Assembly (NCBI GenBank): GCA_039961735.1 | Contig: JABRVX010000069.1 | Location: 1-32,479, forward strand | Direction: 5' to 3' | Length of the DNA stretch: 32,479 bases | From: Fimbriimonadia bacterium | GTDB taxonomy: Bacteria; Armatimonadota; Fimbriimonadia; Fimbriimonadales; JABRVX01 | In this document: one piece after another, positions 3,142 to 27,390 of the stretch | Layout of the letters: the number at the start of each line of letters is the position of its first letter | Numbering within the stretch: position 1 is the first letter of the stretch | Notes under the pieces: generated by a model | Told to the model about the DNA's origin: nothing | Databases searched by the model: none | The model's input: only the letters and a program-made list of their open reading frames with translations | Translations under genes and position numbers: made by a program

Positions 3142-4905
3142 ATGGTGAGATGGAGAGTGGAGGAAGCGGATGCGGGGGCGGTGCGGAACCTATCGGATAG
3201 CCTCGACCTTTCAGAACTGACGGCAAGGCTCTTGGTGAACAGGGGCATCAGAAATCCGGAGCAGGCGCAGGCGTTCCTCTCGCCTCAGATGTCGGACCTT
3301 CACGACCCGATGCTCCTGCCCGACTGCGGCGAGGCGGTGAGGCAGATCGCCTCGGCACTCGAGAACAAAGAGACGATCTTCGTCCACGGAGACTACGACG
3401 TGGACGGAATCACCTCTGCGGCGATCTGGACACGTTGCCTGCGTCGGCTCGGGGGTGTGGTGGAACCCCATCTTCCTCATCGGCAGAAGGACGGCTACGG
3501 CTTCCATCGTGCGGGGGTAGAGCGAGCGAAGGAACTGGGAGCGTCGCTGATCCTCACTTGCGACTGCGGTATCTCGGCTGTGGAGGTTGTGGAGTATGCT
3601 CACGAGCTGGGCATGCGGGTAGTAGTGACCGACCACCATGAGCCCGGCGCTCGGGTGCCCAAGGCGGAGGCTGTGGTAAATCCCCTTCTGCCGGGGAGCC
3701 AATATCCGTTCCAGTACCTCGCCGGTGTCGGGGTTACGTTCAAGGTGGCGCGGGCTCTAGTGGCGGAGTTGGGTTACCCGCCTGAGGCGTTCGACAGGGC
3801 TTACCTGGATTTCGCTGCGTTAGGCACCGTGTGCGACATCGTGCCTCTGCTGGGCGAGAACCGTGTGCTCGCGAGGCACGGGATCGCGCGGATCGCGGAA
3901 TCGAAGAAGCTAGGCCTTCGGGCGCTGATGGAGGTGGCGGGGCTCGCGCGCACGTCCGAAGAGATGACGGCACGCGACGTCGGCTTCGTGATCGGGCCGC
4001 GGCTGAATGCGGCGGGGCGGATGGATGACGCGACGGACGCACTTCGGCTGCTGCTGACCGAAGACGTCAAAGAGGCGAACGAGATAGCGAAACGGCTGGA
4101 CCGGCACAACCGCGAGCGGCAGCGCGAACAGCAGCGTATCTTCGAGGAGGCATGTCACTTGGTAGAGAGCCAAGGCTTGGCCCGCCACAAGCTGTTGTTA
4201 GTCGCCAACGAGGGCTGGAACGCGGGCGTGGTGGGGATTGTGGCATCCAAGCTTGTGGACACCTACTGGCGACCGACGCTCGTGGGCACTAGGGTGGACG
4301 GAATCGTGCGGGGCTCAGCGCGCAGCATCCCTCGCTACGACATGTTCGAAGCCTTGTCGGAACTCGGAGACCTGTTCCTCACCTACGGTGGGCATACGAT
4401 GGCTGCGGGATTCTCCTTCGAGGCCGAGCGCCTAGAGGAGGTGCGGCGCGCCCTCTCGGAGCACGCCGACCGTCACCTGACCGATGAGGACCTGATACCA
4501 GAGCAAGTCGCCGATGCCGAAGTCACGCCGCAGGAGGTGACGGAGCGGTTCGTCGAGGACCTAGAAGATTTCCGGCCATTCGGCCTGGGTAACCCGGAGC
4601 CGCTGCTTCTCGGACGTAAGGTAACGTTGCTTAAGGTAGAGCCGACTCGCAACCCGCTGCACCCCCGCGTGACGCTGCGGGGCGAGGGCACTAACCCCAT
4701 CTTCGGCATGGCATTCGGCCTGGGCGAGCGCCTCGGCGAGTTCGAGCCTGGCGAGGAAGTGGAGATGATGTTCGAGCCTACCTACGATTCGTGGCAAGGG
4801 CGACGCCGTCTTCGCTGGTTCGTTCGGGACATCCGAAGACCAGGGGAAAGCACGGTGGATATCCGCCTCGACAGCCATTCTGAATCGAGCGTGTTGTCAC
4901 CTTGA
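3142..4905 (+). CDS. recJ: Single-stranded-DNA-specific 5'-3' exonuclease RecJ
   Basis: RecJ degrades 5' single-stranded DNA in recombinational and mismatch repair. The 587-residue length is normal. The DHH phosphoesterase motifs are present in order: DYDVDG (84-89), TCDCG (139-143) and TDHHE (163-167). The DHHA1 motif GGHTMAAGFS is at about 416-425, and the C-terminal OB-like region follows from about 450. These residues bind the catalytic metal ions, so the enzyme looks intact. The ATG at 3142 follows GGGAG. Its stop overlaps the TTG start of rel, and it heads a four-gene operon recJ-rel-dtd-TPR. The 85-nt gap to the divergent DUF1015 gene must hold its promoter. Confidence 0.96.
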   Translation: MVRWRVEEADAGAVRNLSDSLDLSELTARLLVNRGIRNPEQAQAFLSPQMSDLHDPMLLPDCGEAVRQIASALENKETIFVHGDYDVDGITSAAIWTRCLRRLGGVVEPHLPHRQKDGYGFHRAGVERAKELGASLILTCDCGISAVEVVEYAHELGMRVVVTDHHEPGARVPKAEAVVNPLLPGSQYPFQYLAGVGVTFKVARALVAELGYPPEAFDRAYLDFAALGTVCDIVPLLGENRVLARHGIARIAESKKLGLRALMEVAGLARTSEEMTARDVGFVIGPRLNAAGRMDDATDALRLLLTEDVKEANEIAKRLDRHNRERQREQQRIFEEACHLVESQGLARHKLLLVANEGWNAGVVGIVASKLVDTYWRPTLVGTRVDGIVRGSARSIPRYDMFEALSELGDLFLTYGGHTMAAGFSFEAERLEEVRRALSEHADRHLTDEDLIPEQVADAEVTPQEVTERFVEDLEDFRPFGLGNPEPLLLGRKVTLLKVEPTRNPLHPRVTLRGEGTNPIFGMAFGLGERLGEFEPGEEVEMMFEPTYDSWQGRRRLRWFVRDIRRPGESTVDIRLDSHSESSVLSP

Positions 4906-7130
4906 GCTCAGGTTCCAGTCAGCAATTGAGCCAGGAATGGGAGGACCCAGAGCCGCTTCAGAAGATTCTGGAGACGGTTGCAGAGCATTACGTCCAACCG
5001 CAGGCCGCGCTGATCAGGAAGGCCTACTACTTCGCCGAGCGCTGCCACAGCGGCCAGGTACGTGACAGCGGTGACCCCTATATAACACACCCACTCGCCG
5101 TGGCCCAGATTCTGGCCGAGTTGGAACTGGACCCCGAGACGGTTATCGCGGGGCTCTTGCATGACACCCTGGAAGACTGCCCAGAGGACGCCACGATGGA
5201 ACTGATCGAGCAGCAGTTCGGGCCCTCGGTTGCGAAACTGGTGCAAGGTGTGACCAAGCTGCGGTTCGCGCATCGCAATGAGCCACTGGGGCCTGCTGCG
5301 AAGAAGCAGGAGGAGATTCGCCGAGCCGCGGAGAGCCTTCGCAAAGTGCTGCTGGCGATGGCATCGGACCTGAGAGTGATGGTCATCAAGCTGGCGGACC
5401 GCCTGCATAACATGCGCACGATCGACGCCCTCACCGACATCAAGCGCAAGCGCATAGCCACGGAGACGATGCACGTATATGCACCGCTAGCGGCCCGGCT
5501 CGGCATCTGGCAGATCAAGTGGCAGTTGGAGGACCTGGCATTCCGGGAACTCGAGCCCGAGGAGTATGGGCGCATAGCCAAGCTGATTGATAAAACACGA
5601 GCGGAACGCGAAGAAGAGCTGCTCGAAGCGATGGTGGCACTGAAAGAGCACCTAGAACGAGCGGGCATAGCTGCCGAGGTGACTGGGCGGCCCAAGCACA
5701 TCTATAGCATCTATAGTAAGATCGTGAAGCAGGGCCTTACCTTCGACCAAGTGTACGACCTGCTGGCAATACGTATCATTGTCGACAAGGAGTCGGAGTG
5801 CTACCATGCGCTCGGCATCGTGCACGAGATGTGGAAGCCGATTCCGGGCATGTTCTACGACTACATCGCGAAGCCCAAGCCGAACCTCTACCGCTCACTA
5901 CACACGAAGGTGGTAGGACCCAACGGTGAGCCGCTAGAGATTCAGATACGCACGCGCGAGATGCACCGCTTGGCCGAGTTCGGCGTGGCCGCGCATTGGG
6001 CCTATAAGGAGGGTGCGGAAGCCCCCGCGGAGCGTCTCCCGCGTCTGCGCCAACAGCTCTTCGACTGGTCACGCGAGTCCGAGACATCCAGCGACTTCCT
6101 GCGTAACGTATCGGAAGACCTTTTCACCGATCAGGTGTTCGTGTTCACTCCGAAGGGTGACGTGATTGACCTACCGGCTGGTTCGACGCCCATCGACTTC
6201 GCTTATCGAATCCACACTCGACTCGGCGAGCAGTTGGTAGGTGCGAAGGTAAACACCCGCATCGTGCCCCTGAGCTATCAGTTGAAGAACGGCGACATCT
6301 GTGAAGTGCTGACACGCCCGAAGGCGCAGCCGAGCCTCGACTGGTTGCAGTTCGTAAAGACGACCTCTGCGCGAAGCAAGATACGAGCCTACCTGCGCAA
6401 GAGGGACATCGAGGAGAATGCGATCCGGGGTCGCGATGCGCTGGAGAAGCATATCAAGTTCCTCGGAAGGGACCCACGGGAGTTCCTAGGCGAGGACAAC
6501 CTAACGGAGATCGCGCCGCACTTCAATGCTACCACCGCAGAAGAGGTGCTGGCCAAGGTTGGCGCAGGACTTGTCACGGTGAATGCCGTGATGATCAGGC
6601 TGAAGGCACTGCTACCACAGGAGCAGGTTCAGCCCGCCGACAGCGTCGAGGGGCGAACCTTCGAGCAACCGATCCGGATTGCCGCTGGCGGCGTGGACAA
6701 CGTGATGACCAGGCGTGCACGCTGTTGCCAGCCGCTGCCAGGCGACAGCGTTGTCGGGTACGTGACACGGGGGCGCGGGATCGTGATTCATCGGGTGATA
6801 TGTCCCAACGCGCAGCAGTTTAGCGAGACGGATCCGGGACGCGTTCAGCCCATCGAGTGGGAGAGCGACGGTGTTAGCGTTTACGGCGTCAACCTGCACA
6901 TAGACGTTCTCAACCGCATCGGTCTGTTGGCGGACGTCAGCCACATCTTCGGTGAGGCGAAGACGAATATCACCGCCGCGCGCGTGAGGTCGGACAAGAA
7001 CCAGATGGCATACATAGACCTATCCATCGAAGTGCGTGACACGGATCACCTGCGCGAGATCATGGCCAAGATCGAGAACTTCTCGGATGTCGTGGCAATC
7101 CGAAGAGTGATGGGGAAAAAGCTGGGATGA
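4902..7130 (+). CDS. rel: Bifunctional (p)ppGpp synthetase/hydrolase Rel (RelA/SpoT family)
   Basis: This 742-residue protein makes and degrades the stringent-response alarmone (p)ppGpp. Domains in order: HD hydrolase (about 40-190), synthetase (about 240-360), TGS (about 410-470) and C-terminal ACT (about 660-742). Hydrolase ligands are visible as H63 (YITHPLAV), H87-D88 (LLHDTLED) and D166 (LADRLHN). The synthetase motif EIQIRT gives the catalytic Glu at about 346. Both active sites appear intact, so it is a bifunctional Rel rather than a monofunctional RelA. The start is TTG at 4902, forming a TTGA overlap with the recJ stop. A stop at 4881 in this frame rules out any longer form, and a second TTG at 4926 is possible. 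No Shine-Dalgarno is evident, suggesting translational coupling. The rel stop overlaps the dtd start (ATGA), an arrangement common for rel-dtd pairs. Confidence 0.96.
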   Translation: MSSGSSQQLSQEWEDPEPLQKILETVAEHYVQPQAALIRKAYYFAERCHSGQVRDSGDPYITHPLAVAQILAELELDPETVIAGLLHDTLEDCPEDATMELIEQQFGPSVAKLVQGVTKLRFAHRNEPLGPAAKKQEEIRRAAESLRKVLLAMASDLRVMVIKLADRLHNMRTIDALTDIKRKRIATETMHVYAPLAARLGIWQIKWQLEDLAFRELEPEEYGRIAKLIDKTRAEREEELLEAMVALKEHLERAGIAAEVTGRPKHIYSIYSKIVKQGLTFDQVYDLLAIRIIVDKESECYHALGIVHEMWKPIPGMFYDYIAKPKPNLYRSLHTKVVGPNGEPLEIQIRTREMHRLAEFGVAAHWAYKEGAEAPAERLPRLRQQLFDWSRESETSSDFLRNVSEDLFTDQVFVFTPKGDVIDLPAGSTPIDFAYRIHTRLGEQLVGAKVNTRIVPLSYQLKNGDICEVLTRPKAQPSLDWLQFVKTTSARSKIRAYLRKRDIEENAIRGRDALEKHIKFLGRDPREFLGEDNLTEIAPHFNATTAEEVLAKVGAGLVTVNAVMIRLKALLPQEQVQPADSVEGRTFEQPIRIAAGGVDNVMTRRARCCQPLPGDSVVGYVTRGRGIVIHRVICPNAQQFSETDPGRVQPIEWESDGVSVYGVNLHIDVLNRIGLLADVSHIFGEAKTNITAARVRSDKNQMAYIDLSIEVRDTDHLREIMAKIENFSDVVAIRRVMGKKLG

Positions 7131-7594
7131 GAGCGGTGGTGCAACGGGTTACGTCGGGTAGTGTAGAGGTGGATCGTTTCCGCGTTGCTGGAATCGGCAA
7201 GGGCATTGTCGTGCTTCTCGGCATCTGTCGCTCGGATACCGTGCCGGACGCGGACTGGATGGCACGCAAGTTGGCGGAACTGCGCATCTTCGACGACGAA
7301 GAAGGAAAGCTGAACCTGTCCCTGTCGGACATCGGAGGAGAGGCGCTCGTGGTTCCCAACTTCACGCTGTACGGCGATGCGCGAAAAGGCCGACGCCCCA
7401 GCTACACCGAGGCTGCCGGTTTCGATCAGGGGCGCACCCTATTCGACCTGTGCTGCGAAAGGCTCGAATCGCACGGCATATCGGTCAAACGCGGTGTCTA
7501 CGGCGCCACAATGGCCGTATCCTTAACTAACGACGGCCCGGTGACTCTGATACTGGAGCACCCGGACAGCCGTGCCGACGATCCGAGTGGCTGA
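7127..7594 (+). CDS. dtd: D-aminoacyl-tRNA deacylase (Dtd)
   Basis: Dtd is a cytoplasmic homodimer that removes D-amino acids and glycine mischarged on tRNA. The 155-residue protein begins MRAVVQRV as in the family and has KGRRPSY (about 87-93), GVYGATM (123-129) and NDGPVT (135-140); the last holds the cross-subunit Gly-cisPro motif that excludes L-amino acids. The segment usually written SQFTLYGD reads PNFTLYGD at 77-84, so Ser and Gln are both replaced. The gene overlaps the rel stop (ATGA), implying translational coupling. Confidence 0.95.
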   Translation: MRAVVQRVTSGSVEVDRFRVAGIGKGIVVLLGICRSDTVPDADWMARKLAELRIFDDEEGKLNLSLSDIGGEALVVPNFTLYGDARKGRRPSYTEAAGFDQGRTLFDLCCERLESHGISVKRGVYGATMAVSLTNDGPVTLILEHPDSRADDPSG

Positions 7595-8426
7595 AGGGAT
7601 GGAAGTAGAGCGACAAGAGCAAACCGAAGAGACACTGACCGGAGCGGCCCGTCACCGCGCCGATGGCGACCGCTCGGTTGCGGAGGGCAACGTCAGCGAG
7701 GCGCTCGACCACTACCGGAAGGCTGTGCGGAAGGAGTCGGACGACCCTGCAAGCCGCGTGTCGCTTGCGGACTGCTATGCCCTCTCCGACGAAGGCCCAC
7801 AGGCCGTAGACCAGTACCGCAAAGCACTGAAGAAGCACCCTAGACAGGCTGCACCACACGTCGGGCTGGCCGAGGTCTACCGCCGCTACGGGCAGCACAA
7901 GGCGGCGATCTTGCGCTTCCAGAAGGCGCTCGAAATTGAGCCCAACAACGGGTTCATCTGGTTCAAGCTGGCGGATGCTCTTCTGACATCCGAAGGGCCC
8001 GAAGAGGCACTCGAGCCGGGGATGAAGGCCGTGGAGATCGATCCTCAGAACGCCTTCTACCGCTATTGGGTCGGCGAAGTGCTGATGGACCTGGATCGGC
8101 CGGAGGACGCCTTGGTCCGTTATGCAGAAGCCGTGGAGCTATCGCCGGATGATGCAGGCCTGCATGCGCGGTTGGCCATCGCCTACGCTGCGGCGGGCAG
8201 GTACCGGAGGTCGGCTGCGTGGTTTGCCCGTGCGGTCCAGATCGAGAACGACAACCGGGCCTACATCACGCTACTGGGTGATCTGTACCGTGTGTGCGGT
8301 AGCCAGGATCTGGCCGACGAGGCGCACGAGCGGGCAGGCGAGTTGGACGCCTATGACACCGAGATTGTGCGGAGAGCGCGCGAGCGCATGAAGCTGCCGT
8401 CTTCGCCTGTCACCGACTCCGGCTAG
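7572..8426 (+). CDS. Tetratricopeptide repeat protein
   Basis: A 284-residue protein built largely of TPR units (about six or seven across residues 25-270) with the pattern A...Y.KAL...P. No signal peptide or membrane segment is visible, so it is probably a cytoplasmic scaffold or adaptor. The partner is unknown. It is the last gene of the recJ-rel-dtd operon. The start is uncertain: GTG at 7572 overlaps dtd by 23 nt, while ATG at 7599 has GAAGGG only 0-2 nt upstream. Either way the TPR region is unaffected. Confidence 0.8.
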   Translation: MPTIRVAEGMEVERQEQTEETLTGAARHRADGDRSVAEGNVSEALDHYRKAVRKESDDPASRVSLADCYALSDEGPQAVDQYRKALKKHPRQAAPHVGLAEVYRRYGQHKAAILRFQKALEIEPNNGFIWFKLADALLTSEGPEEALEPGMKAVEIDPQNAFYRYWVGEVLMDLDRPEDALVRYAEAVELSPDDAGLHARLAIAYAAAGRYRRSAAWFARAVQIENDNRAYITLLGDLYRVCGSQDLADEAHERAGELDAYDTEIVRRARERMKLPSSPVTDSG

Positions 8427-8748
8427 TCTCACCACCCGGAATATCCGCACAGACTGTTCCTAACCGCGAAGATGCGGACGGCTAGCGTGCACAAGCGCAT
8501 GGAGTGTGCCCGCTCACCGTGACCGGCAGGTGGAATCATGCGCCATGCACACGAGGGGGCTTCCGCATGGACATCGAGCATACGATGGAGCCTCGACGTT
8601 CGGCTGCTGGAGTCGATGGTGACTTAAAAGCATCAGTGCTTGGCAGCCGAAACGCATAGTCATGGCTCGCCTCTATGTCCTGTCCTGCATCACGGTCGCC
8701 TGTAGCGAAGCTCTCCGGTGCTCTCCAAGTAAGTATCTCGGCACGCCC
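8427..8748. other. Convergent intergenic region between the TPR gene and uvrB
   Basis: These 322 nt hold no ORF that I would call a gene. The notable element is the inverted repeat at 8597-8654, described separately. Both flanking genes point into this region, so terminators are expected here, but no classic GC-stem plus T-run was found. Confidence 0.5.
8597..8654. other. Inverted repeat with nested hairpin
   Basis: TTCGGCTGC (8599-8607) pairs perfectly with GCAGCCGAA (8643-8651), extendable by CG past one bulged base. Inside the loop, AAGCA/TGCTT (8628-8641) forms a second 5-bp stem with loop TCAG. It lies between the convergent ends of the TPR gene and uvrB. It may be a factor-dependent bidirectional terminator or mRNA-end structure, or a small structured RNA. 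No T-run follows. Confidence 0.4.
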
Positions 8749-10773
8749 CTACTTTCTAGCCTTACGTGCCCGAGCACCGACAGAGGGTAGGCCGCCGGAC
8801 TCCAGCAGCCGGCGGAGTTCCATCATCTCGTCCCGCACACGCGCCGCCTTTTCGAACTCCATCTGCTTCGCCAGGTCCTTCATCTCTGCTTCCAGCCGGG
8901 CGATCTCCGCGGGCAAGTCCTCCAGGGACATGGAGCCGATCTCTTCCGCCCGTCGCCTGCCGTATGGCGACTTGGTCTCCTTCACCTCGTAGGCTCGTAC
9001 GGTCTCCCGCACCATTTTCGCCACCGTGTGTGGAGTGATGTTATGCTTGCGGTTGTATTCGTCCTGGATGCGACGCCGCTCCACCGTCTCGTCAATCGCT
9101 CGTTGCATGGAGCCGGTGATGGTGTCAGCGTACATGATCACCTTTCCGTCCACGTGACGGGCAGCTCGCCCGATGGTTTGCACCAGCGAAGTCTCGCTGC
9201 GCAGAAACCCCTCCTTGTCAGCGTCCAGAATCGCCACCAGACTCACCTCTGGTAGGTCCAAACCCTCACGTAACAGATTGACACCTACCACCACATCGTA
9301 CACACCCAACCGAAGGTCCCGTAGGATCTCCGGCCGATCGAGGCTGTGGATATCGGAGTGGATGTAGTTGACTTTGATCCCGACGTCCTTCAGGTACTCG
9401 CTAAGGTCCTCGGCCATACGCTTGGTCAGTGTGGTGATCAGCGCTCGTTGACCAGCCGCAACCCGCTTCTGCACTTCGCCCAGCAGGTCGTCTATCTGGC
9501 CCTCGGTCGGTCGAACCTCTACGTCGGGATCCACTATGCCCGTCGGACGGATTACCTGCCGCACGATCTGGGCACTGTTTTCTTGCTCGAACGGGCCAGG
9601 CGTGGCGGATGTGAAGATTACCTGTCCTACGCGTGCCAGGAACTCCTCCCACTGCAGCGGACGGTTGTCGAGTGCAGACGGCAGGCGGAAACCGTACTCC
9701 ACCAAGGTGCTCTTCCGCTGATAGTCTCCGTTGTACATCGCGCGAAGTTGTGGTATGGTCTGGTGCGACTCGTCCACGAAGGTGATGAAGTCCTTCGGGA
9801 AGAAGTCTATCAGTGTGTACGGTGGGGTGCCCGGAGCACGATTTTCGAAGTAGCGCGAGTAGTTCTCGATGCCGTTGCAGTATCCGAGCTCAGCGATCAT
9901 CTCCAGGTCAAACTCGGTGCGCTGTTGAATGCGTTGCGCCTCCAGCAGTTTGCCCTCCGCTTTGAACTTGGCTATCTGCTCCTCCATCTCCTGGCGGATC
10001 GCCAAGACCACCTCGTCCAGTCGCTCCCATGGTGTTACGTAGTGCGTGGCCGGAAAGACGGTTATTCGCTGAGGCTCGTCCAGCACCTCGCGCGTGAGTG
10101 GATCCACGATGCGAATGCGCTCCACCTCGTCACCATAGAACTCCACGCGTGTGATGATCTCTTCGTCCTTGGGCTGCAGCTCCAGCGTATCGCCCTGCAC
10201 GCGAAAGGTACCACGCTCCAGTACTACCTGGTTGCGTGTGAACTGCATCTCCACCAGTCTGCGCATGGTCTGCGCGAGGTCTAGCGGCTCACCGACGCAG
10301 AAGGTGACAACGCTCTGCGCATACTCGTCCGGCGAACCGAGTCCGTAGATGCAGCTTACGGAGGCGATGACGATGGTGTCCTTGCGCTCCAGCACCGATT
10401 TGGTAGCAGCGTGGCGAAGGCGATCGATCTCGTCGTTCACGCTGGCGTCCTTTTCGATATACATGTCGCTCTGAGGGACGTAGGCCTCCGGTTGGTAGTA
10501 GTCATAGTAGCTGATGAAGTATTGGACGGCGTTCTCCGGGAAGAATGCGCGGAACTCCTGGCAGAGCTGTGCCGCCAGCGTCTTGTTGTGCGCGATGACC
10601 AACGCTGGACGCTGCACCTCCTGAATAATGGAGGCCATCGTGAAGGTCTTGCCCGTACCCGTAGCACCTTTTAGCGTCTGAAAGCGGTATCCGCTCTCTA
10701 GCCCCTCGACAAGCGCTGCGATGGCTTCGGGCTGGTCCCCCATCGGCTTATAGGTGTCAGTCAGCTTGAACAC
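8749..10773 (-). CDS. uvrB: Excinuclease ABC subunit B (UvrB)
   Basis: UvrB is the DNA-damage verification helicase of nucleotide excision repair, loaded by UvrA and recruiting UvrC. The 674-residue protein carries Walker A GATGTGKT (36-43), the beta-hairpin YYDYYQPEAYVPQ (about 89-101), Walker B DESH (334-337), helicase motifs such as TIGRAAR, and a C-terminal UVR coiled coil (about 625-660) that binds UvrC. It is complete. The start is GTG at 10773. No clear Shine-Dalgarno is seen at the right distance, but TAGACT lies 6 nt upstream, suggesting a leaderless mRNA. uvrA and uvrC are not in this window. Confidence 0.97.
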   Translation of the reverse strand: MFKLTDTYKPMGDQPEAIAALVEGLESGYRFQTLKGATGTGKTFTMASIIQEVQRPALVIAHNKTLAAQLCQEFRAFFPENAVQYFISYYDYYQPEAYVPQSDMYIEKDASVNDEIDRLRHAATKSVLERKDTIVIASVSCIYGLGSPDEYAQSVVTFCVGEPLDLAQTMRRLVEMQFTRNQVVLERGTFRVQGDTLELQPKDEEIITRVEFYGDEVERIRIVDPLTREVLDEPQRITVFPATHYVTPWERLDEVVLAIRQEMEEQIAKFKAEGKLLEAQRIQQRTEFDLEMIAELGYCNGIENYSRYFENRAPGTPPYTLIDFFPKDFITFVDESHQTIPQLRAMYNGDYQRKSTLVEYGFRLPSALDNRPLQWEEFLARVGQVIFTSATPGPFEQENSAQIVRQVIRPTGIVDPDVEVRPTEGQIDDLLGEVQKRVAAGQRALITTLTKRMAEDLSEYLKDVGIKVNYIHSDIHSLDRPEILRDLRLGVYDVVVGVNLLREGLDLPEVSLVAILDADKEGFLRSETSLVQTIGRAARHVDGKVIMYADTITGSMQRAIDETVERRRIQDEYNRKHNITPHTVAKMVRETVRAYEVKETKSPYGRRRAEEIGSMSLEDLPAEIARLEAEMKDLAKQMEFEKAARVRDEMMELRRLLESGGLPSVGARARKARK

Positions 10774-10934: not shown

Positions 10935-13900
10935 CTAGAACCGTAGCGTGTAGTCCACCTTACCTACCAGATAGTTCCTACCACGCCCGTTCGGGATGTC
11001 ATGCTCGTACTGGGTGTGGGATACGGAGAAGCTGAGCGCGTTCAGCGGGTTCAGCGTGTGCGAGTAGCCGAGCGTAAAGGTGTGGCCGATGGTGGACCGG
11101 CCGTTCAGCGTGCTGGCCTCCACCCCATAGCCCACGTTCCACAGTGGCAGTCCCCCACGGGTCTTCCTCGTTAGTGTCAGCCCGCCCTTGCGCGCTATCT
11201 GACCCTTCGTCGCATCGTAGGTCGTCAGGTAAGACCCCGCCAAATCGTAGCAGTCGCTCATCTTGTAGTCGAGCCGCCAGTCGGCCGTACCGGTAGGATT
11301 GATGATTGTGCCGAAGGGCACATCCTTGTGCTCGCGCTCGGGGTTCGCTTTTAGGTCGTGGACGAGCGTAAGCCGATCAGCGATCTTGTAGTCGAGGTGG
11401 TAGTTGCGGATGATCTGCTGCGTACCACCGGGCAGGGTGCGGATCTTGTAGCTCAAGTTCAGGTGGAAGGGCAGCTTCGGCTCGGGGTCGGTTGCGAACT
11501 GGAAGGTGCGGTCCACGGCGCGAATCCCAGTAGGTGTCATGATCCCGGAGTAGGTCCAGCCGAGCTTGTTCTTGCCCCAATCGGCAGTGATGGTACCGGC
11601 TTTGTTCTCCATCTTCAACACTGTCGCCTCGGCGAGGTTCTGGTAGCCGAAGGAGAAGTTGATGTTGCTGAGTGGTCCGAATGAGAAAGGTGTTACGTTC
11701 TTGAGACCGAAGGTGCCCTGCGCCTTCGTGCTGGTTAGGTCCAAGCGGTCCTCGACGTATCCACCCTGGAACTCGAGGTTCCACAACAGGGTCTTCGTTA
11801 GGCTGAGGTTCTGAACGGCCTTGCCGTTCCCCTTGCTGTTGAGTGCCCGGGTATACGCCCATGTCACTTGCGAGCCTTTCCCGAAATCGTATTGTAGGCT
11901 GTAGGTCCTATGTACTTCGTCTGCACGTTGCTCGTCGCGCTCGATGGTCTTCTCAGTGACTCCGAACTTTGCACGAGGGGTGAGGGCGCCGGATATGCTG
12001 CGGACACTCACGTGCTCCGTGTTGCCCGCGGTGTCCGATGTGCGCAGGTCCTCGGCGAGGAGCGCGAAGCCGCGGTAGGGCGAACCCTCGTATCGCCAGT
12101 GGTCCACCTGCTTCTCGACCGGTGCGGCGAGCGAGCCGCCTCGCACTTCGCGTTCCGTGAAGCCGCTGAACTTGCCCAGGCTGCCGAAGTCCCTAGCATA
12201 GGTGGTCTTCTCATGAAGGTAATCGTTCAGGCTGGCGATGGGACTGTCTGCCCGAACCCGGTCGTTGAAATGCGATAGGTCCGTTCGCTTGTCCGGCTTC
12301 CACGTTAGGAAGCTCTTCGTCTGGCCCTTGTGAATCTGCGCGGTCGGGTTGTCTGCGTTGAACTGGAACAGCTCCAGGCGCAGTCCGCGGACTAGGTCCA
12401 CTTTGGCCGACAGATCGTATTGCGAGAAGCCTCTCAGCTCCTCGAACAGCTTTCGCTCGGGGTCGGCGACGGCACCCGCGCCGAGAAACGCATCGTCCAC
12501 CTGCCTTAGGTTGGCCGTAACCTCGTAGAGCCCGCTCTTCAGGTATAGGCTCTGCCGCTCGAGGCCACCTAGCTCGCCGGCGATATTCAGACTCTGGAAG
12601 CTGAGCTTTCCTCCGCGTGGCAAGCCGAAACCGAGTGCCCACTGTGTTCGGTGCATACCGACCTCGCCGCCATAGAGCGCCTGCTCCATCTCGAACAGGT
12701 CCCCCATGCGTCGGAAACCGCGGTCTATGCGCTGGTCCAGATAGCTGAAGGTCATCGAGCCGGAGCTGAAGCCCAGGCGAACCCGATCAATGCCGCCGCT
12801 CCGGTCGTCCAGGTGGAGGGTGTCGAACGAAAACTTGCCGAAGGGGCGATCCAGGCTAAAGCTCTTGTAGTCGCGCGAAAGGCCTCCCTGGCGAAGCAGG
12901 AACTGCGGGTCTTTCTCGGCGATCTTGTCGTCACCGGGAACGTAGCCCTGCCGAGCCTCTCGGATCATTTGCTGCTGCTCGTCCGGGCGCAGGCTGGCCA
13001 GGCCGGTGAAGTCGGCATCGGTCTCGGTAGAGGTCCACTTTGCCTGCCAGCCCTGACCACTCAGATCGAGTGCCTGCCGGTGAAGATCGCCGGTCGGCGT
13101 GTCTACGGTGTCCTGGCGATAGGTGTTCCACACGTCCTTTCGCCCTGCGAAGTCCGCCACGCTCACGGAGAAACCGGATCGTCCCCACCCGCGCTCCTTG
13201 GCCCACTGCCCTCGCTCCCCCTCGGCCAGATCGTTGAAGCGACTGAACCCAGCGTCCACGTTCTGCTCGTAGTGGCTGAGCTTCACCTTCTCGCTCTCGA
13301 AGCCGAGGGTTAGGCGGTCAATCGAACCACCAGCATCCGTGATCTCGCTCTTATCGAACTTCAGGCCCCCTCCTGCGAAACCGAGTGCTCCTCCGAAGTT
13401 CTCCCGAGTGATGCCACGCTCCTTAGCCCATTGCTCGGCGTCCTTCTCGGCCAAGTCCTTGAACCTGGTGAAGGCGGATCCGATGGAGCGGGAGTTCCAG
13501 TACAGAGACCCTTCACCCAGCTTGAGGGTCACGGAGCGGCGCTCTATGGTGCCCTTACCGTCCGAGATGCTGCTGAAGTCGGTGTCGAGGTCGCCTCCCT
13601 CCTGCCCGAACCCGAGGGTGTAGCCGAAGCGCTTGATGCCACGCTCCTTCTGCCAGGCGTTCACTTGCTCGGCGGCTATCCCCTCTTCGCGGAGCGCCTG
13701 GAACCCGTTGAACTTCGAACCCACGTCCTGATAGCTGAAGCCTGCGCGGAAGCCTCCCTCCTTCACGGTGAGGTCTTGTACGAGCAGGTGATCTAACACG
13801 TCTGCCTGCTTGCGCGTCTGCTTGCGCTCCGGGGACGCAGGATCGGCAAAGGCCTGCATCGAGCGCTGGTTCGACACGAAGAAGTAACCGCTGAGGCCAG

Positions 13901-14429
13901 TGCCAGTCGCGAGTTTGAAGTTCGTCGCGAGCCCGTACGACATGCGCTGTACGATGGAGCCGTCCGTGCCGCGCTCGGCAGGTTGGAGGCTGAAAACGCC
14001 CTTCATGCCTCCGGCTTGGCCAAAACTGAGCGACATCAAGTTGAGGTTCAGGGCCTTAGCTTCCCCAACGAGTTTGTCGCTGTGACGATAGGTGATCTGC
14101 ACGGACTGGTGCTGCTTGACAGCGCTGTAGAAGGTCAGAGTGCCGGATGGGTAGTCGAGGGTGTAGTCGGTCCCTCGCTTCAGGGTGCGACCGTCCACGC
14201 TCACGCTCTCCGAGCCTGGCACGATGCCGGCATAGCGGAGCGCGTAGCCGAAGCCAGTTCCGTTGCCCGGGAGTAGGTCGCACGCGGCTTCGCCGGCAAC
14301 TTGCGGGAGAGCCTGCGAGGGGGCCGTACCTGAGTTCAGGGACCCCGTGTAGCCGGTCTGGCACGCAGCACGCACCGCCACGAATGCGACGCATGTCACG
14401 AGCAGCACACTCCGGGCAAACAGGCTCAC
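10935..14429 (-). CDS. Secreted outer-membrane-type protein with six imperfect repeats of about 75-98 residues
   Basis: I do not recognise this 1164-residue protein. The N-terminus MSLFARSVLLVTCVAFVAVRAA looks like a Sec signal peptide; Cys23 is not in a good lipobox. Residues about 59-115 form a small beta domain with DYTLDYPSGTLTF, a motif seen in several secreted or outer-membrane proteins. From about 237 to 690 a module recurs six times, starting at F240, F320, F395, F474, F572 and F648. It has an amphipathic helix, typically DxxFxRFxDLxE then QWxKERG, followed by alternating strands (LGF..GGLxF, GxIxRxxLxF). Residues 700-1164 show alternating polar/aromatic strand patterns, and the protein ends in TLRF with a terminal aromatic residue, as many beta-barrel outer-membrane proteins do. 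Start is GTG at 14429 with GAGGAGGA upstream. It follows an anti-sigma-like gene by 44 nt, so both are likely one operon. Function unknown. Confidence 0.85.
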   Translation of the reverse strand: MSLFARSVLLVTCVAFVAVRAACQTGYTGSLNSGTAPSQALPQVAGEAACDLLPGNGTGFGYALRYAGIVPGSESVSVDGRTLKRGTDYTLDYPSGTLTFYSAVKQHQSVQITYRHSDKLVGEAKALNLNLMSLSFGQAGGMKGVFSLQPAERGTDGSIVQRMSYGLATNFKLATGTGLSGYFFVSNQRSMQAFADPASPERKQTRKQADVLDHLLVQDLTVKEGGFRAGFSYQDVGSKFNGFQALREEGIAAEQVNAWQKERGIKRFGYTLGFGQEGGDLDTDFSSISDGKGTIERRSVTLKLGEGSLYWNSRSIGSAFTRFKDLAEKDAEQWAKERGITRENFGGALGFAGGGLKFDKSEITDAGGSIDRLTLGFESEKVKLSHYEQNVDAGFSRFNDLAEGERGQWAKERGWGRSGFSVSVADFAGRKDVWNTYRQDTVDTPTGDLHRQALDLSGQGWQAKWTSTETDADFTGLASLRPDEQQQMIREARQGYVPGDDKIAEKDPQFLLRQGGLSRDYKSFSLDRPFGKFSFDTLHLDDRSGGIDRVRLGFSSGSMTFSYLDQRIDRGFRRMGDLFEMEQALYGGEVGMHRTQWALGFGLPRGGKLSFQSLNIAGELGGLERQSLYLKSGLYEVTANLRQVDDAFLGAGAVADPERKLFEELRGFSQYDLSAKVDLVRGLRLELFQFNADNPTAQIHKGQTKSFLTWKPDKRTDLSHFNDRVRADSPIASLNDYLHEKTTYARDFGSLGKFSGFTEREVRGGSLAAPVEKQVDHWRYEGSPYRGFALLAEDLRTSDTAGNTEHVSVRSISGALTPRAKFGVTEKTIERDEQRADEVHRTYSLQYDFGKGSQVTWAYTRALNSKGNGKAVQNLSLTKTLLWNLEFQGGYVEDRLDLTSTKAQGTFGLKNVTPFSFGPLSNINFSFGYQNLAEATVLKMENKAGTITADWGKNKLGWTYSGIMTPTGIRAVDRTFQFATDPEPKLPFHLNLSYKIRTLPGGTQQIIRNYHLDYKIADRLTLVHDLKANPEREHKDVPFGTIINPTGTADWRLDYKMSDCYDLAGSYLTTYDATKGQIARKGGLTLTRKTRGGLPLWNVGYGVEASTLNGRSTIGHTFTLGYSHTLNPLNALSFSVSHTQYEHDIPNGRGRNYLVGKVDYTLRF
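12360..13721 (-). repeat. Six-copy protein-level repeat inside the outer-membrane-type protein
   Basis: Repeat starts (conserved Phe) fall at residues 240, 320, 395, 474, 572 and 648, giving spacings of 80, 75, 79, 98 and 76. Copies 1-3 are most alike, sharing a W-x-K-E-R-G helix end. Copies 4-6 keep the helix-then-strands pattern and the GG(I/L)xR turn but lose the KERG signature. The repeats are not obvious at DNA level, so they are old. Confidence 0.75.
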
Positions 14430-14473
14430 CTAGTTCTCAATCCTCCTCGTGGATTTCCCATCGGCGTGTGTGC

Positions 14474-15412
14474 TTAGAACCGTCCTCGGACGAGTGTCAA
14501 TCCGTCGCTCTTGGAGGCGCGATAGGACGGTTGGTCAATCTTAGGTAGCGCATCGCCCTCGGCCAGCGAGATGCGAATGCGGGACTTGTTCTCCTCAGTC
14601 AGAAGCGTGGACTCGGGACGTTGAGGCGCGGCCTCGGCGGTCTTGGCAGCCACCGTCGGCGAGTTCTTGGCCCTCTCGAGATTGATGACGGCCCCGCTAT
14701 CGTCTACGGACACGATGATGTCGGGCTCGGATGGCTGCGTGGATTCGAGTTCGATGGCCTTGAACCGCGCGGGCTGATCCGTCGGATCGAAGGGCAGCGC
14801 GGCCAGCATCCTGGGCGAGCCGATGTGCCCTGGCCGGGCGGCGGATGCGACCATGATCGGCGACGCTTCCAGCTCATGAGCAGCAGCCTTCCCGCGAACG
14901 ACCACTCTGCGGGCCGACCGTGTCGGGAAAGCGGTCGATGCGACGTCTTGCACCAACGCACCCTCGGCAACCGGTCGATCGGGAGCCTTCAGGATGTCGC
15001 CGGCGCTCATCTCGGCGACCTCGCGCTCGCCCGTGACTGAGGGCGGAGCCGGAGGTAGGTGGGCCGGCCGTAATGCTACGTACGCGAGGGCAATCGCGGA
15101 TGCCGCCGCCGCAAAGCCGAGCGGACGCGCCGTGAGAGCCGAGCGCACCCTGTCCGCGAAGGTTGGCCGTCGCGTCGTAGCATAGAGGATGGCCGACCGC
15201 AGCCGAGCGGGGGCTTCCACAGCCTCGATCGCGGCCATCTCACCTAGCGAATGATCGAGTAGCGCGAATTCCCGAGCACATGCCGCACAGGTATCTAGGT
15301 GGGCGAGAAGCTCGCTCGCCTCAGCCTCCGATGCCTCGCCATCGGCGAAGGCGGACATAATCTCCCAGTACTTCTCTGTGCAGTTGTCGGGATTCTTAGG
15401 ACTTTGGGACAT
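14474..15412 (-). CDS. Anti-sigma factor-like protein with N-terminal zinc finger and one membrane segment
   Basis: The 312-residue protein starts with a ZAS-type zinc finger: C11 and then H38-x3-C42-x2-C45 in AHLDTCAAC. Such domains bind ECF sigma factors. A membrane segment lies at about 98-115 (GFAAAASAIALAYVALRP), with a long, low-complexity, probably extracytoplasmic tail to 312. The ATG at 15412 was chosen over the frame extending to 15487 because GAGGTG sits 4 nt before it and the zinc finger then begins normally. No sigma factor gene is adjacent, so its partner must be elsewhere or absent. The outer-membrane-type gene starts 44 nt downstream. Three dyads lie upstream at 15422-15504. 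Its role as an anti-sigma factor is inferred from the domain only. Confidence 0.8.
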   Translation of the reverse strand: MSQSPKNPDNCTEKYWEIMSAFADGEASEAEASELLAHLDTCAACAREFALLDHSLGEMAAIEAVEAPARLRSAILYATTRRPTFADRVRSALTARPLGFAAAASAIALAYVALRPAHLPPAPPSVTGEREVAEMSAGDILKAPDRPVAEGALVQDVASTAFPTRSARRVVVRGKAAAHELEASPIMVASAARPGHIGSPRMLAALPFDPTDQPARFKAIELESTQPSEPDIIVSVDDSGAVINLERAKNSPTVAAKTAEAAPQRPESTLLTEENKSRIRISLAEGDALPKIDQPSYRASKSDGLTLVRGRF

Positions 15413-15421
15413 AAGACACCT

Positions 15422-15436
15422 CGGAACACAATTCCG
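15422..15436. promoter_or_regulatory. Dyad CGGAA-N5-TTCCG next to the anti-sigma ribosome binding site
   Basis: Perfect 5-bp arms (15422-15426 and 15432-15436) flank CACAA. On the anti-sigma mRNA the hairpin would abut the GAGGTG ribosome binding site, so it could be an operator or a translational control element. Confidence 0.35.
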
Positions 15437-15457
15437 CCTTTTTTGACCGTCTCGAAG

Positions 15458-15472
15458 CCCGACTGTGTCGGG
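15458..15472. promoter_or_regulatory. Dyad CCCGAC-TGT-GTCGGG
   Basis: Perfect 6-bp arms with a 3-nt centre in the divergent intergenic region between the anti-sigma gene and the small gene at 15656. A candidate operator; no regulator is identified. Confidence 0.35.
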
Positions 15473-15486
15473 AATTGTCGTGGACA

Positions 15487-15504
15487 TTCACACGGGTCTG
15501 TGAA
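15487..15504. promoter_or_regulatory. Dyad TTCACA-N6-TGTGAA
   Basis: Perfect 6-bp arms with a 6-nt centre (CGGGTC). The half-sites are those of CRP-type sites but in the opposite order (TCACA-N6-TGTGA), so this is probably an operator for some other dimeric regulator. Confidence 0.4.
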
Positions 15505-24184: not shown

Positions 24185-26185
24185 TTGCTGCCGACACTCG
24201 CACTCGCGCTAGCTGCCCTGCTCGCACCGCCGAAGGGCGTGATTCTCGACCACCAGCCTGCGTTCACAGAGATCACCCGTACTCTCGCGGCACCGAACCG
24301 AGCGATCGTGCGATTCGCCTCGCCCGCTCACCGGCTTGCGGCCGCGGCCGAAGGCTACAAGCTGCTACGAAACATCCCGCAGCTCGGTTACAGCGTGGTG
24401 CTGGTGCCTTACGGACGAGTAGACACTTCGATTCAGCGACTGAAGTCACTGGGTTACGTGACGGAGGCCTTCCCGGACCGCGTGTACCACCCGGCCTACA
24501 CTCCGAACGACCCGGTGTTCCCCGACCAGTGGAACCTGGTAGACCAAAGGATACCGCAGGTATGGGACGTAGAAAAGGGCAATCCGAGCGTCGTGATCGC
24601 CGTCCTGGACACCGGGGTGGACTACAATCACTCCGACCTGAACGCCAACATCCGACGTAACACCGCCGATCCGATAAACGGTGCAGACGACGACGGCAAT
24701 GGCTACGTGGATGATTACTGGGGATGGGACTTCGCCTACAACGATCGCAACCCGATGGACGACCATGGTCACGGCACTGCCTGTGCGGGCATCAACGCTG
24801 CCATCCAGGATAACAATTACCAGATCAGCGGAGTAGCTCCGCGGTGCCGCATTATGTGCGTGAAGATCGGTCAGTCCGATGGCTACAGTTACGATTCGAT
24901 GTTCGCGCCCGGGGTCGTGTACGCAGCCGACAACGGGGCGAAGGTGCTCAGCATCAGCTACTTCAGCGACGACCTCACACCGCTACTTCGCGCTGCTTGT
25001 GACTATGCGTATGGCAAGGGTGCACTGCTCTCGGTAGCGGCAGGCAACTTCGACGAGGTGTTCCCGGTGTATCCTGCGGGATACGACCGCGCCATCGGGG
25101 TTGCCGCCCACGGCCAGGGCGGCACGAAAGCGTATTTCAGCAATTTCGGTACATGGGTGGATGTTTCGGCGCCTGGAATCGGCGTACCAGCAAGCACGTT
25201 AGGGGGTGGATACACCACAGGCTTTGCCGGCACGTCGGCGGCTGCCCCTAATGCCGCTGGGGTACTCGGGCTGCTTTTCAGCCACTTCCCAGGCGAGTCG
25301 AACGAGCAGATACGGCGCAGGCTGGAGTACACGGCGGCACCGATCGCATCCACGCAGGAAGGCGAGGTCTGCAACTACGGCCGGGTGGACGCACTGGCCG
25401 CGCTGGGCTTCGGCGATAGCGACCCGAACAACGGGCTTGCGGGTCTGCGTGGCAAGCCACCGGAGGTCCGCTACGTCTCGCCCATGGTTCTTCCCGCCGA
25501 GGGGGGGCGCATCACCATTCGTGGCCGCTACTTCGATCCGGGCGTCAAGGGCGTCTGGTTGCGTGTCGGCAACACGCGAATCCGCACCACTTACTGGTCC
25601 GACGAGGTGGTGGAGGCCGAGGTGCCACCTGGCACCCCTAGCGGCGTGCTCGTCGTCGATGCTCTGGGCGCATCCAACGGCATCCCGATCACGATCGCTG
25701 GGCCGGGCGTAAGGTTCCAAGCGGTGCCTTCCGATTTCAGCAACGCGATTATCCCGGTCGGGGGCGGCTTGTCTCCTTTTGGCACAGCCAGAGACCTGTG
25801 GTTCGCAGACGGGCAGGTGGCCCGGTTCGCCGCGGACTACGCGGGGCAAGATTTCGATATGCGGATCCTGGTCCGGGGCTTGGATAAGAACTCGATCAGC
25901 CAACTGTCTGCGTCGATCACCCGCACGCTCGGCCCGGTGGGTGCGAATGCTGGGGGCGCGCTGCAGCTCTATGACTTCTCGACTGGCAGCTATCCCTATG
26001 GCAGTTGGGCCACCGTGCTTACCGAGAACTTTACCATGCAGACGGGAACGGTAACGGCCGAGGTGGGTGGTGACGTGTCGCGGTTCGTGTCGTACGAAGG
26101 CGACCTCTTCGTGCGCTATCGCGGCAACCTAAAGAATTCGATGGGCTATGTGGACGTGGACCGGTTGTGGTTCGAGTGGAAGTGA
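24185..26185 (+). CDS. Secreted subtilisin-like serine protease (S8) with IPT/TIG-like and C-terminal beta domains
   Basis: The 666-residue protein starts with a signal peptide (MLPTLALALAALLAPPKG). Residues about 35-105 resemble an inhibitor-type propeptide. The S8 catalytic domain (about 113-410) has D142 (AVLDTGVD), H196 (HGHGTACAG), oxyanion N288 (VAAGN) and S351 (GTSAAAP), so the triad is complete. An IPT/TIG-like beta domain follows (about 427-505). The last domain (about 508-666), ending VDVDRLWFEWK, is unrecognised and beta-rich. The start is TTG at 24185 with AGGAGA upstream. It converges with the response regulator gene 8 nt away. Confidence 0.9.
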   Translation: MLPTLALALAALLAPPKGVILDHQPAFTEITRTLAAPNRAIVRFASPAHRLAAAAEGYKLLRNIPQLGYSVVLVPYGRVDTSIQRLKSLGYVTEAFPDRVYHPAYTPNDPVFPDQWNLVDQRIPQVWDVEKGNPSVVIAVLDTGVDYNHSDLNANIRRNTADPINGADDDGNGYVDDYWGWDFAYNDRNPMDDHGHGTACAGINAAIQDNNYQISGVAPRCRIMCVKIGQSDGYSYDSMFAPGVVYAADNGAKVLSISYFSDDLTPLLRAACDYAYGKGALLSVAAGNFDEVFPVYPAGYDRAIGVAAHGQGGTKAYFSNFGTWVDVSAPGIGVPASTLGGGYTTGFAGTSAAAPNAAGVLGLLFSHFPGESNEQIRRRLEYTAAPIASTQEGEVCNYGRVDALAALGFGDSDPNNGLAGLRGKPPEVRYVSPMVLPAEGGRITIRGRYFDPGVKGVWLRVGNTRIRTTYWSDEVVEAEVPPGTPSGVLVVDALGASNGIPITIAGPGVRFQAVPSDFSNAIIPVGGGLSPFGTARDLWFADGQVARFAADYAGQDFDMRILVRGLDKNSISQLSASITRTLGPVGANAGGALQLYDFSTGSYPYGSWATVLTENFTMQTGTVTAEVGGDVSRFVSYEGDLFVRYRGNLKNSMGYVDVDRLWFEWK

Positions 26186-26193
26186 CAGCCTAG

Positions 26194-27390
26194 CTAAGCT
26201 GCCTTCGTCGCGGGTGAAGGACGCCTCTCTCGCGCAACGCCTGGGAAGCGGAGGATTACCCGATTGCGCTGCCCGGGCTCGCTCACACAGATCATACGGC
26301 CGCCGTGATCCTCCACGATGCTCTTTGCGGCTGCTAAACTCAGTCGCATCTGCTCGGTGGTGGCTTCGAGCGGGTTTATGGCGTCACCGTTCGAGCAGCC
26401 GTTTTGAAGGCCCGCGTCTGCTATCTCGATGACCGCTCGAGGGGGTCTTCCCTCCTCGCGCCGTGTGGACACCATGACTGCGCCTCCGGGCTCAGTCCAC
26501 TCGATAGCGCTCATCACGAGCGTCACGAAGACCTGCTGCAACCGGCTTGGAATCGCGATCACGTCAGGCACGTCTTGATTCAGGTTCGTCTTCACGGTAA
26601 GCCGCGACTGAACCAATTCGCTTTCCAACAGCAGCAACGCGTCGCCGAGAACCGCATTCACCCCGACTTGCACGGGCACGGATTGCTCGGGAGAGGTGTA
26701 CCGGATCAGCGCCTCCAGAACCCTTTTGGAATGGCGAGCGGCCGTCTCCAGCCGTTGCAGTCCGAGGATGAGATGTTGCTTGTCAGCCTCTGCCGCCGGG
26801 TCAGTGGACAGCGCCTGCGCCTTCTCCGTCGCATACTCGGCCAGATACTGAACGGCTTCGAGAGGGGTGCTGATGCCGCGGACCACTGTCTCGGCCAGCT
26901 TGCCGACCCCAGCCTGCCGCCCTGCTGCGATCAACTCATCGGCACCCTCCTGTAGGCGCTGCACGGCAGCCTCCAAGTGGGCTTCCAGCTGACGGTTCTG
27001 AACGTGCAGCTGGCGGGTGCGTACGGCCCGCTCTACGACTACGGACAGCTCGCGGATGTCATCAAGGGGCTTCGTAAGGTAATCGTAGAGGTTCCCAGCA
27101 CGGACAGCCTCCAACACGTTCTCGAGGGAGCCGTAGGCGGTGAGGATAATGACCTCGCATAGCGGCCACCTGTGCTTTGCGGCGCGCATGACCTCCAGGC
27201 CGTTTGCCTTAGGCATTCGCATGTCGGTCACCACCACCGAGTACTCGTTGGCCTCGAGGTAGGAAATAGCCTCGTGCCCATCGGCGGCTCGGTCTACGGC
27301 AAACCCAGAGAGTTCGAGCTGTTTGCTGAGGACCTGCCGAAGGCCTTCCTCATCCTCCGCCACTAGAACGCGCTGATCGTGATAGGACAT
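26194..27390 (-). CDS. Response regulator fused to a degenerate histidine-kinase-like module
   Basis: The 398-residue protein has an intact REC domain (about 5-125): D13, phospho-acceptor D56 (VVTDMRMP), T84 and K107. A coiled coil (about 125-160) leads to a HisKA/HATPase-like part (about 155-385), but its key residues are gone. The H-box reads VVRGISTPL (R171 where His is expected), the N-box is RLQQVFVTLVMSAIEW with T290 and S294 in place of Asn, and the G1 box is DAGLQNG instead of DTGxG. It is probably a phospho-dependent regulator or adaptor with a pseudo-kinase output rather than a working kinase. No DNA-binding domain is seen. The ATG at 27390 follows AAAGGG. No partner kinase is adjacent. 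Confidence 0.85.
   Translation of the reverse strand: MSYHDQRVLVAEDEEGLRQVLSKQLELSGFAVDRAADGHEAISYLEANEYSVVVTDMRMPKANGLEVMRAAKHRWPLCEVIILTAYGSLENVLEAVRAGNLYDYLTKPLDDIRELSVVVERAVRTRQLHVQNRQLEAHLEAAVQRLQEGADELIAAGRQAGVGKLAETVVRGISTPLEAVQYLAEYATEKAQALSTDPAAEADKQHLILGLQRLETAARHSKRVLEALIRYTSPEQSVPVQVGVNAVLGDALLLLESELVQSRLTVKTNLNQDVPDVIAIPSRLQQVFVTLVMSAIEWTEPGGAVMVSTRREEGRPPRAVIEIADAGLQNGCSNGDAINPLEATTEQMRLSLAAAKSIVEDHGGRMICVSEPGQRNRVILRFPGVARERRPSPATKAA

Follow-up and report, generated by a model that had tools for sequence, protein, structure and literature searches.

The window analysed here, a stretch of 32,479 nucleotides (nt) from Fimbriimonadia bacterium (GenBank assembly GCA_039961735.1, contig JABRVX010000069.1, positions 1 to 32,479), carries on its minus strand a gene for a giant barrel-type protein of 1164 amino acids (aa). 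The gene is single-copy, near-universal in the order Fimbriimonadales and widespread in the phylum Armatimonadota. On the evidence assembled below, we lean slightly towards reading its product as a beta-barrel of the outer membrane that would be exported by Sec and inserted by the beta-barrel assembly machinery (BAM), the wall being one meander of about 54 strands with modular growth.

A sequence-only reading of the same DNA had placed the open reading frame (ORF) at 10935–14429 correctly, without giving a strand, and had left a barrel with regularly inserted helices or an elongated envelope protein as alternatives. That interpretation is partly supported. Of the two, the barrel has the stronger support, with its closure and its outer-membrane location both putative; the strand number, the change in module number, the phylum-wide spread and a conserved upstream partner gene were not part of it.

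A helix-bearing module is repeated six times

The tandem repeat is confirmed. When the six modules (R1–R6) were compared profile against profile, all 15 pairs reached probabilities of 94.5–99.8 (E-values from 8e-8 to 9e-29), as the six-fold repeat noticed in the sequence-only reading would have it, and control comparisons of the N- and C-terminal non-repeat segments with the repeats all stayed at or below 33. A module profile places the copies at about residues 225–308, 304–383, 380–460, 459–560, 557–634 and 632–716. Among the controls, three pairs of C-terminal segments score 66–82, so the C-terminal half may be weakly similar within itself.

The amphipathic helix recognised earlier is conserved in an alignment of 33 homologues as FxRFxDLxExD...KERGxxR. 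The turn first written as GG(I/L)xR is better described as G-x-(I/L)-x-R, a form that is exact in R2, R4 and R5, with variants in R1 (GKGTIER) and R3 (PTGDLHR). Invariant residues recur in register from copy to copy (F240/G264/R267, F320/G339/R342 and F395/G414/R417; also G516/R519). A strand-rich C-terminal half with a terminal aromatic residue had also been proposed and is found: the protein ends in Phe, as does nearly every homologue, a few ending instead in Leu or Tyr, or in Phe or Leu followed by one to a few residues.

The strands are predicted to form a continuous membrane-type sheet

AlphaFold2 was run twice, once with 86 sequences for the full-length protein (mean predicted local distance difference test, pLDDT, 90.3; predicted template modelling score, pTM, 0.56) and once with 118 sequences for residues 120–1164 (mean pLDDT 93.1, pTM 0.62), and both runs gave the same strand order. 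The models contain about 54 antiparallel strands of about 10–14 residues in one meander that runs to the C-terminus; the number 54 is set by turn parity, and a short extra strand at residues 131–136 leaves 55 possible. Counting residues 142–148 as strand 0, helices stand behind strands 4, 8, 12, 16, 20 and 24, one per module, which gives a helical insert after every fourth of the first 24 or so strands. The part behind the modules (residues 717–1164) holds the last 25 strands or so; if the count begins where the R6 helix stops, about 28 strands follow without such helices.

This strand order was compared with mean-field coevolution in 134 distinct sequences, each 980 aa or longer (effective number 99), the set that also serves for the module counts below. 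Coevolution above the 95th percentile of non-neighbours was obtained for 39 of the 53 neighbouring strand pairs. The supported pairs include most of those flanking a helix as well as strands 24 and 25 (5.6), which form the border between the repeat half and the C-terminal half, and this argues for a continuous sheet instead of two separate barrels.

Two barrels in one chain, as described for GfcD (PMC11494523), could, for example, join a repeat barrel that carries the helices to a plain barrel at the C-terminus; such multi-barrel chains exist, and the halves do differ in helices and in belt depth. We nevertheless regard this arrangement as quite unlikely and set it aside: there is no break at the border, where strands 24 and 25 coevolve as strongly as other neighbours, no linker domain lies between the halves, and in a crude geometric simulation superpositions with LptD, FimD and VDAC match a wide ring, not rings of 26–28 strands. 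By this simulation, the root-mean-square deviations reported for the structural matches fit a ring of about 46–54 strands better than one of 26–36, a fit to a wide ring that alignment errors could mimic.

The sheet also has two faces. The contrast between odd and even strands is 1.01, compared with a null of 0.44 ± 0.04, and the hydrophobic face is concentrated at the end with the two-residue turns (1.13 versus a null of 0.23 ± 0.10), forming a belt about 8 residues deep in the C-terminal half. Towards the helix end, hydrophobic residues also face inward, but in the repeat half only, which would suit helices that pack into the interior. Taken together, coevolution and the hydrophobic belt support a continuous membrane-type sheet. 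BamA/Omp85 was found in 21 of 21 relatives.

The number of modules varies among relatives

In the 134 proteins, the module profile finds four modules in 5, five in 20, six in 105 and seven in 4, a few of these counts being affected by shortened ORFs or undetected copies. Median lengths are 1011, 1086, 1166 and 1220 aa for four, five, six and seven modules, respectively, and the part behind the last module is nearly constant at 406–440 aa. With doubtful rows masked, at least about nine changes of module number are needed on the tree; sister genera of one family (f33) are one module and 74 aa apart. The variation agrees with double hairpins being gained and lost in tandem, a unit already proposed for the growth of outer-membrane barrels (PMC6340704).

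Distribution and descent of the gene

Relatives were searched for in genomes of the order (61), the class (113) and the phylum Armatimonadota (291). Within the order, 58 of the 61 genomes have a match, nearly always full-length, single-copy and about 1160–1210 aa long, with 24–37% identity from end to end. Matches were obtained in 110 of the 113 genomes of the class and in 262 of the 291 of the phylum; many of the latter cover the small N-terminal module only, so that true full-length carriers are fewer than 262. The named records of relatives, seen in a four-row alignment from the largest genus, are Fimbriimonadaceae / Armatimonadetes, and a scan of named genomes with the single protein as query returned no relatives. 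Each listed family stays one group in a tree of the C-terminal part, which points to vertical descent of the gene. The family may extend beyond Armatimonadota.

Two small genomes of Fimbriimonadaceae (G054 and G055, 1.5 Mb) are without the gene. Separately, a record titled 'Methanoregulaceae archaeon isolate SJ84' (JADZEW010000008.1, L152) holds a Fimbriimonadales barrel gene; probably either the title is incorrect or the bin is a mixture.

A zf-HC2 gene recurs directly upstream

The gene upstream of the barrel gene encodes a protein with a zf-HC2 domain (38.2 bits, curated cut-off 22.2), one transmembrane segment, a long Pro-rich part that is putatively periplasmic, and a beta-strand-like tail ending in F. 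Upstream sequence is sufficient in 67 places, corresponding to 61 distinct proteins and six repeat entries for loci among them, and this partner lies directly upstream on the same strand in 45 of them. The gaps run from −1 (a stop/start overlap in family f19) to 128 nt, with one of 613 nt. The remaining 22 places are almost all from Fimbriimonadaceae (f3), the exceptions being one f2 genome and one f35 genus; within the order, f1, f2, f4 and f5, but not f3, are the families in which a partner of full or almost full length was found. In most families the last residue of the tail is F (for example VDVITVRF, VDVIRGSF, ISLVKTTF and ISILRSRF), with variants in f2, and the Cys residues of zf-HC2 are lost in f5 and in some members of f13. 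The recurrent pairing outside Fimbriimonadaceae suggests a trans-envelope partner.

It is quite possible, though we would put it somewhat short of even, that what stands upstream is just an ordinary anti-sigma gene, co-transcribed with the barrel gene but with a product that makes no physical contact with the barrel, a situation compatible with our reading of the barrel itself. zf-HC2 proteins are usually anti-sigma factors, the pairing could be regulatory only, and Fimbriimonadaceae do without the partner gene. However, inspection by eye, with no profile search, recognised no sigma gene beside the partner in the window or beside the other listed upstream neighbours, unlike several other zf-HC2 genes of that genome, which by eye adjoin a sigma-like gene. 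The partner's tail also resembles the barrel's own end and is kept in most families, while none of the 12 proteins with the other zf-HC2 matches of that genome ends in F, and the pairing is kept across the phylum at the gaps given above.

In family f19 the gene row on L109 (minus strand) consists of a porin-like gene (8183–10186; Porin_4, 667 aa), whose product also has the N-terminal beta module, the partner (7118–8023), which overlaps the barrel start, and the giant barrel gene (3624–7118).

A proposed arrangement in the envelope

From the computed anatomy we infer membrane location, closure, a cap, docking and signalling. In the proposed arrangement, the wall would comprise about 46–58 strands across the phylum, four per module, its size being changed by tandem gain or loss of a double hairpin with its helical loop, and would close into one giant barrel. 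In outer-membrane barrels the short turns and the C-terminus are usually periplasmic. Because the helices lie opposite the short turns, they would be extracellular, presumably folded inward as a cap, and the small N-terminal beta module would be periplasmic.

We hypothesize that such a protein could serve as a large capped pore or translocon, with the partner reading its state from across the envelope. The cytoplasmic zf-HC2 end of the partner would be anti-sigma-like, and its Pro-rich periplasmic arm would be long enough to extend to the outer membrane; there the beta-signal-like tail would form a pair with the edge of the barrel, or with BAM, as long as the barrel is intact or under assembly. 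More specifically, the protein would be the largest single-chain transmembrane beta-barrel (about 46–58 strands), with its size set by modules and monitored by a zf-HC2 protein that donates a strand to the seam or to BAM; we put this full combination forward tentatively, as well short of an even chance. The partner's tail offers a testable idea of how the assembly of the outer membrane might be read directly by a regulator in the cytoplasm. Single-copy and near-universal in its little-studied order, the barrel gene is a candidate for a core component of a poorly characterised outer membrane.

Several observations weigh against this scheme. Coevolution in the 134 sequences lends no support to the closing pair of first and last strand, and a pTM of only 0.56–0.62 leaves the global shape uncertain. 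The belt of the repeat half is about 5 residues deep, thin for an outer membrane, query-normalised TM-scores to the nearest known barrels do not exceed 0.24, and the amphipathic sheet of ApoB100 is among the Foldseek matches, which makes a sheet other than a barrel possible. As for the partner, it is absent from Fimbriimonadaceae and its tail is lost in f5, so that the barrel can work without it; it is also present in a genome of f4 (G003, L239:2625-4986) where a barrel is undetectable. A functional test of the barrel or the partner gene was not found in the literature. In G003, we note, the partner faces a gene pair of an extracytoplasmic function (ECF) sigma factor and a zf-HC2 protein, and its tail reads IDVAVFKVKL.

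The points on the sheet would suit an open amphipathic sheet, either a lipid groove spanning the periplasm (TamB/AsmA/VPS13-like) or an ApoB-like belt that lies on the membrane, which we consider unlikely, if worth keeping in view. A meander that is hydrophobic on one face would also suit a groove, and a freely variable module number would be as in a rod; ApoB100 among the top matches, the moderate pTM and the thin belt add to this. Speaking for a closed barrel instead, the beta-signal-like terminal Phe is kept across the phylum, TamB/AsmA domains are absent from the protein in Pfam and NCBIfam scans, the signal peptide is typical and not an N-terminal membrane anchor, and hydrophobic positions stop about 5–8 residues from the short-turn end instead of covering the whole strand.

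Other features of the gene and its surroundings

Coordinates of all features are collected in Table 1. The barrel gene starts with GTG at 14429 and its stop codon is at 10935–10937. Q24, directly behind the predicted cut of the signal peptide, is nearly invariant in the homologue alignment. The small N-terminal beta module follows the pattern GSExVxVDGxxLxRGxDYxxDYxxGxLxF and is common to two other outer-membrane-type families and, weakly, to SprA and a pilus protein.

Table 1. Features of the barrel gene and its upstream partner in the window (residue numbers refer to the respective protein).
Feature	Position	Strand	Basis
Giant barrel-type protein gene, 1164 aa	10935..14429	-	ORF and full-length homologues across order, class and phylum
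Predicted cleavable signal peptide, residues 1-23	14361..14429	-	sequence, alignment
AGGAGG, ribosome-binding-like, 12 nt before GTG start	14442..14447	-	sequence
Small N-terminal beta module, residues 47-116	14082..14291	-	AlphaFold2 DSSP strands, profile matches
Module R1, residues ~225-303	13521..13757	-	profile-profile comparison, module profile
Module R2, residues ~304-379	13293..13520	-	profile-profile comparison, module profile
Module R3, residues ~380-458	13056..13292	-	profile-profile comparison, module profile
Module R4, residues ~459-556, longest helical insert	12762..13055	-	profile-profile comparison, DSSP, module profile
Module R5, residues ~557-631	12537..12761	-	profile-profile comparison, module profile
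Module R6, residues ~632-716	12282..12536	-	profile-profile comparison, module profile
C-terminal part without helix modules, residues 717-1164	10938..12281	-	AlphaFold2 DSSP; length nearly constant between lineages
Last strand, beta-signal-like end VDYTLRF, residues 1152-1164	10938..10976	-	terminal Phe conserved
Partner gene, 337 aa, 44 nt upstream of barrel gene	14474..15487	-	Pfam, gene pair conserved, alignment
Partner zf-HC2 domain	15275..15376	-	Pfam
Partner transmembrane segment, residues 121-139	15071..15127	-	hydropathy maximum
Partner tail GLTLVRGRF	14477..14503	-	tail class kept across families

ORFs antisense to the barrel gene that seemed conserved were rejected as shadow ORFs of GC-rich sequence and codon use; frames of up to 1161 aa that overlap the barrel gene in antisense at L043:7439-10924 (plus strand), and similar ones elsewhere, look alike in this respect. 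Downstream, uvrB was excluded from the system because the clusters that other genomes have kept do not include it. Further away in the window lie a gene for a secreted subtilase (24185–26185, plus strand; Peptidase_S8) that also has a TIG domain and, in addition, a C-terminal part to which Pfam has no match, and a gene (26194–27390, minus strand) for a protein with a response regulator receiver and HATPase_c, in which Pfam shows no histidine-kinase dimerisation domain.

Comparison with known systems

As far as Pfam and NCBIfam go, the earlier statement that no family with this repeat is known is borne out. The Pfam scan gave no match above cut-off, those to DUF2460 and FIST_C being rejected as below cut-off and local, and the sole NCBIfam match, far below its cut-off, is to SprA (TIGR04189; 25.3 bits over 52 residues, 62–113, compared with a cut-off of 200 over about 2300 positions). 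By sequence, neither the protein nor an 86-row profile found any match in the PDB, and the open literature, to which our search was confined with subscription papers outside it, yielded no earlier description. In structure, the best Foldseek matches of the two models are SprA, LptD, FimD and SlpA/SDBC, plus the ApoB100 belt.

The protein has three general features of outer-membrane barrels, namely an antiparallel meander from neighbour to neighbour, a hydrophobic outward belt and an aromatic C-terminal beta-signal. The defining features tested for SprA, LptD, SlpA/OmpM, TonB-dependent receptors and TamB/AsmA (for the last, the family domain and the N-terminal membrane anchor) were not found in it; Pfam gave no match to the TonB-dependent receptor plug or to the TonB-dependent transporter (TBDT) barrel family.

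SprA (PDB 6H3I; 36 strands, PMC10994853) is likewise a very large single-chain outer-membrane barrel, is the top structural match of the first model and has in common with our protein a beta module of about 50 residues near its N-terminal side. Membership in, or descent as a fragment from, this translocon family of the type IX secretion system (T9SS) would account for that match and for the weak TIGR04189 hit, but is very improbable, and we rejected it: the hit falls far short of its cut-off and is limited to the beta module, which is not specific to SprA, since porin-like paralogues have it too and a pilus protein matches it weakly, and TM-scores are 0.14–0.16. There is no homology over the barrel, and SprA has 2400 aa instead of 1164 and is without the six-fold helix module.

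LptD, with 26 strands, resembles the protein as a long meander barrel (Foldseek E about 1e-6); the giant barrel has about twice the strands and none of the LptD Pfam domains. The notion that it is the missing outer-membrane exporter of lipopolysaccharide (LPS), standing in functionally for LptD, draws on 21 genomes of the order that have LpxC, LptF/LptG and BamA but no LptD match (PF04453, absent from the barrel protein as well), and on LptD chains being among the nearest folds. We think it improbable. The absence of LptD is weak evidence because the LptD model misses divergent LptDs, detecting only 2 of 14 controls; the barrel protein lacks an LptD_N domain, and the LptD_N matches in genomes of the order are proteins of about 200–530 aa. 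No Lpt gene was seen adjoining the barrel gene, and other large conserved barrel-type families there are equally good candidates, for example one of 855 aa at G000:C2. A second conserved barrel-type family (849–955 aa in the members read; L081:2411-4978, minus strand, and G000:C2 at about 74 kb) has two copies of the N-terminal beta module, mostly ends in F and has matches in most genomes of the class.

The partner recalls RseA- and FecR-type transmembrane anti-sigma proteins, which combine a cytoplasmic anti-sigma domain, one transmembrane segment and a periplasmic sensor part. It has an anti-sigma-like cytoplasmic domain, one transmembrane segment and a periplasmic part; it differs in that the sensor part is a Pro-rich arm with a barrel-like end and in that no adjacent sigma gene was recognised.

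SlpA/OmpM of Deinococcus-Thermus and other Terrabacteria (28–30 strands; PMC9388160) are large barrels of deep-branching diderms as well, with Foldseek TM-scores of 0.21–0.26 (7zgx), whereas the giant barrel has more strands and neither a coiled coil nor, in Pfam, an SLH match. Deinococcus proteins are predicted to reach 38 strands (PMC9388160). If closed, the protein described here would exceed this prediction, and the 36 strands of SprA as the largest solved barrel cited, by about half, and may be the largest single-chain membrane barrel yet proposed.

The double-hairpin scheme for barrels of 8–26 strands (PMC6340704) likewise rests on tandem duplication of a four-strand unit. Here the unit contains a helix, can be recognised by sequence and varies in number among living relatives; those with 4, 5, 6 and 7 modules make strand gain in a barrel directly testable.

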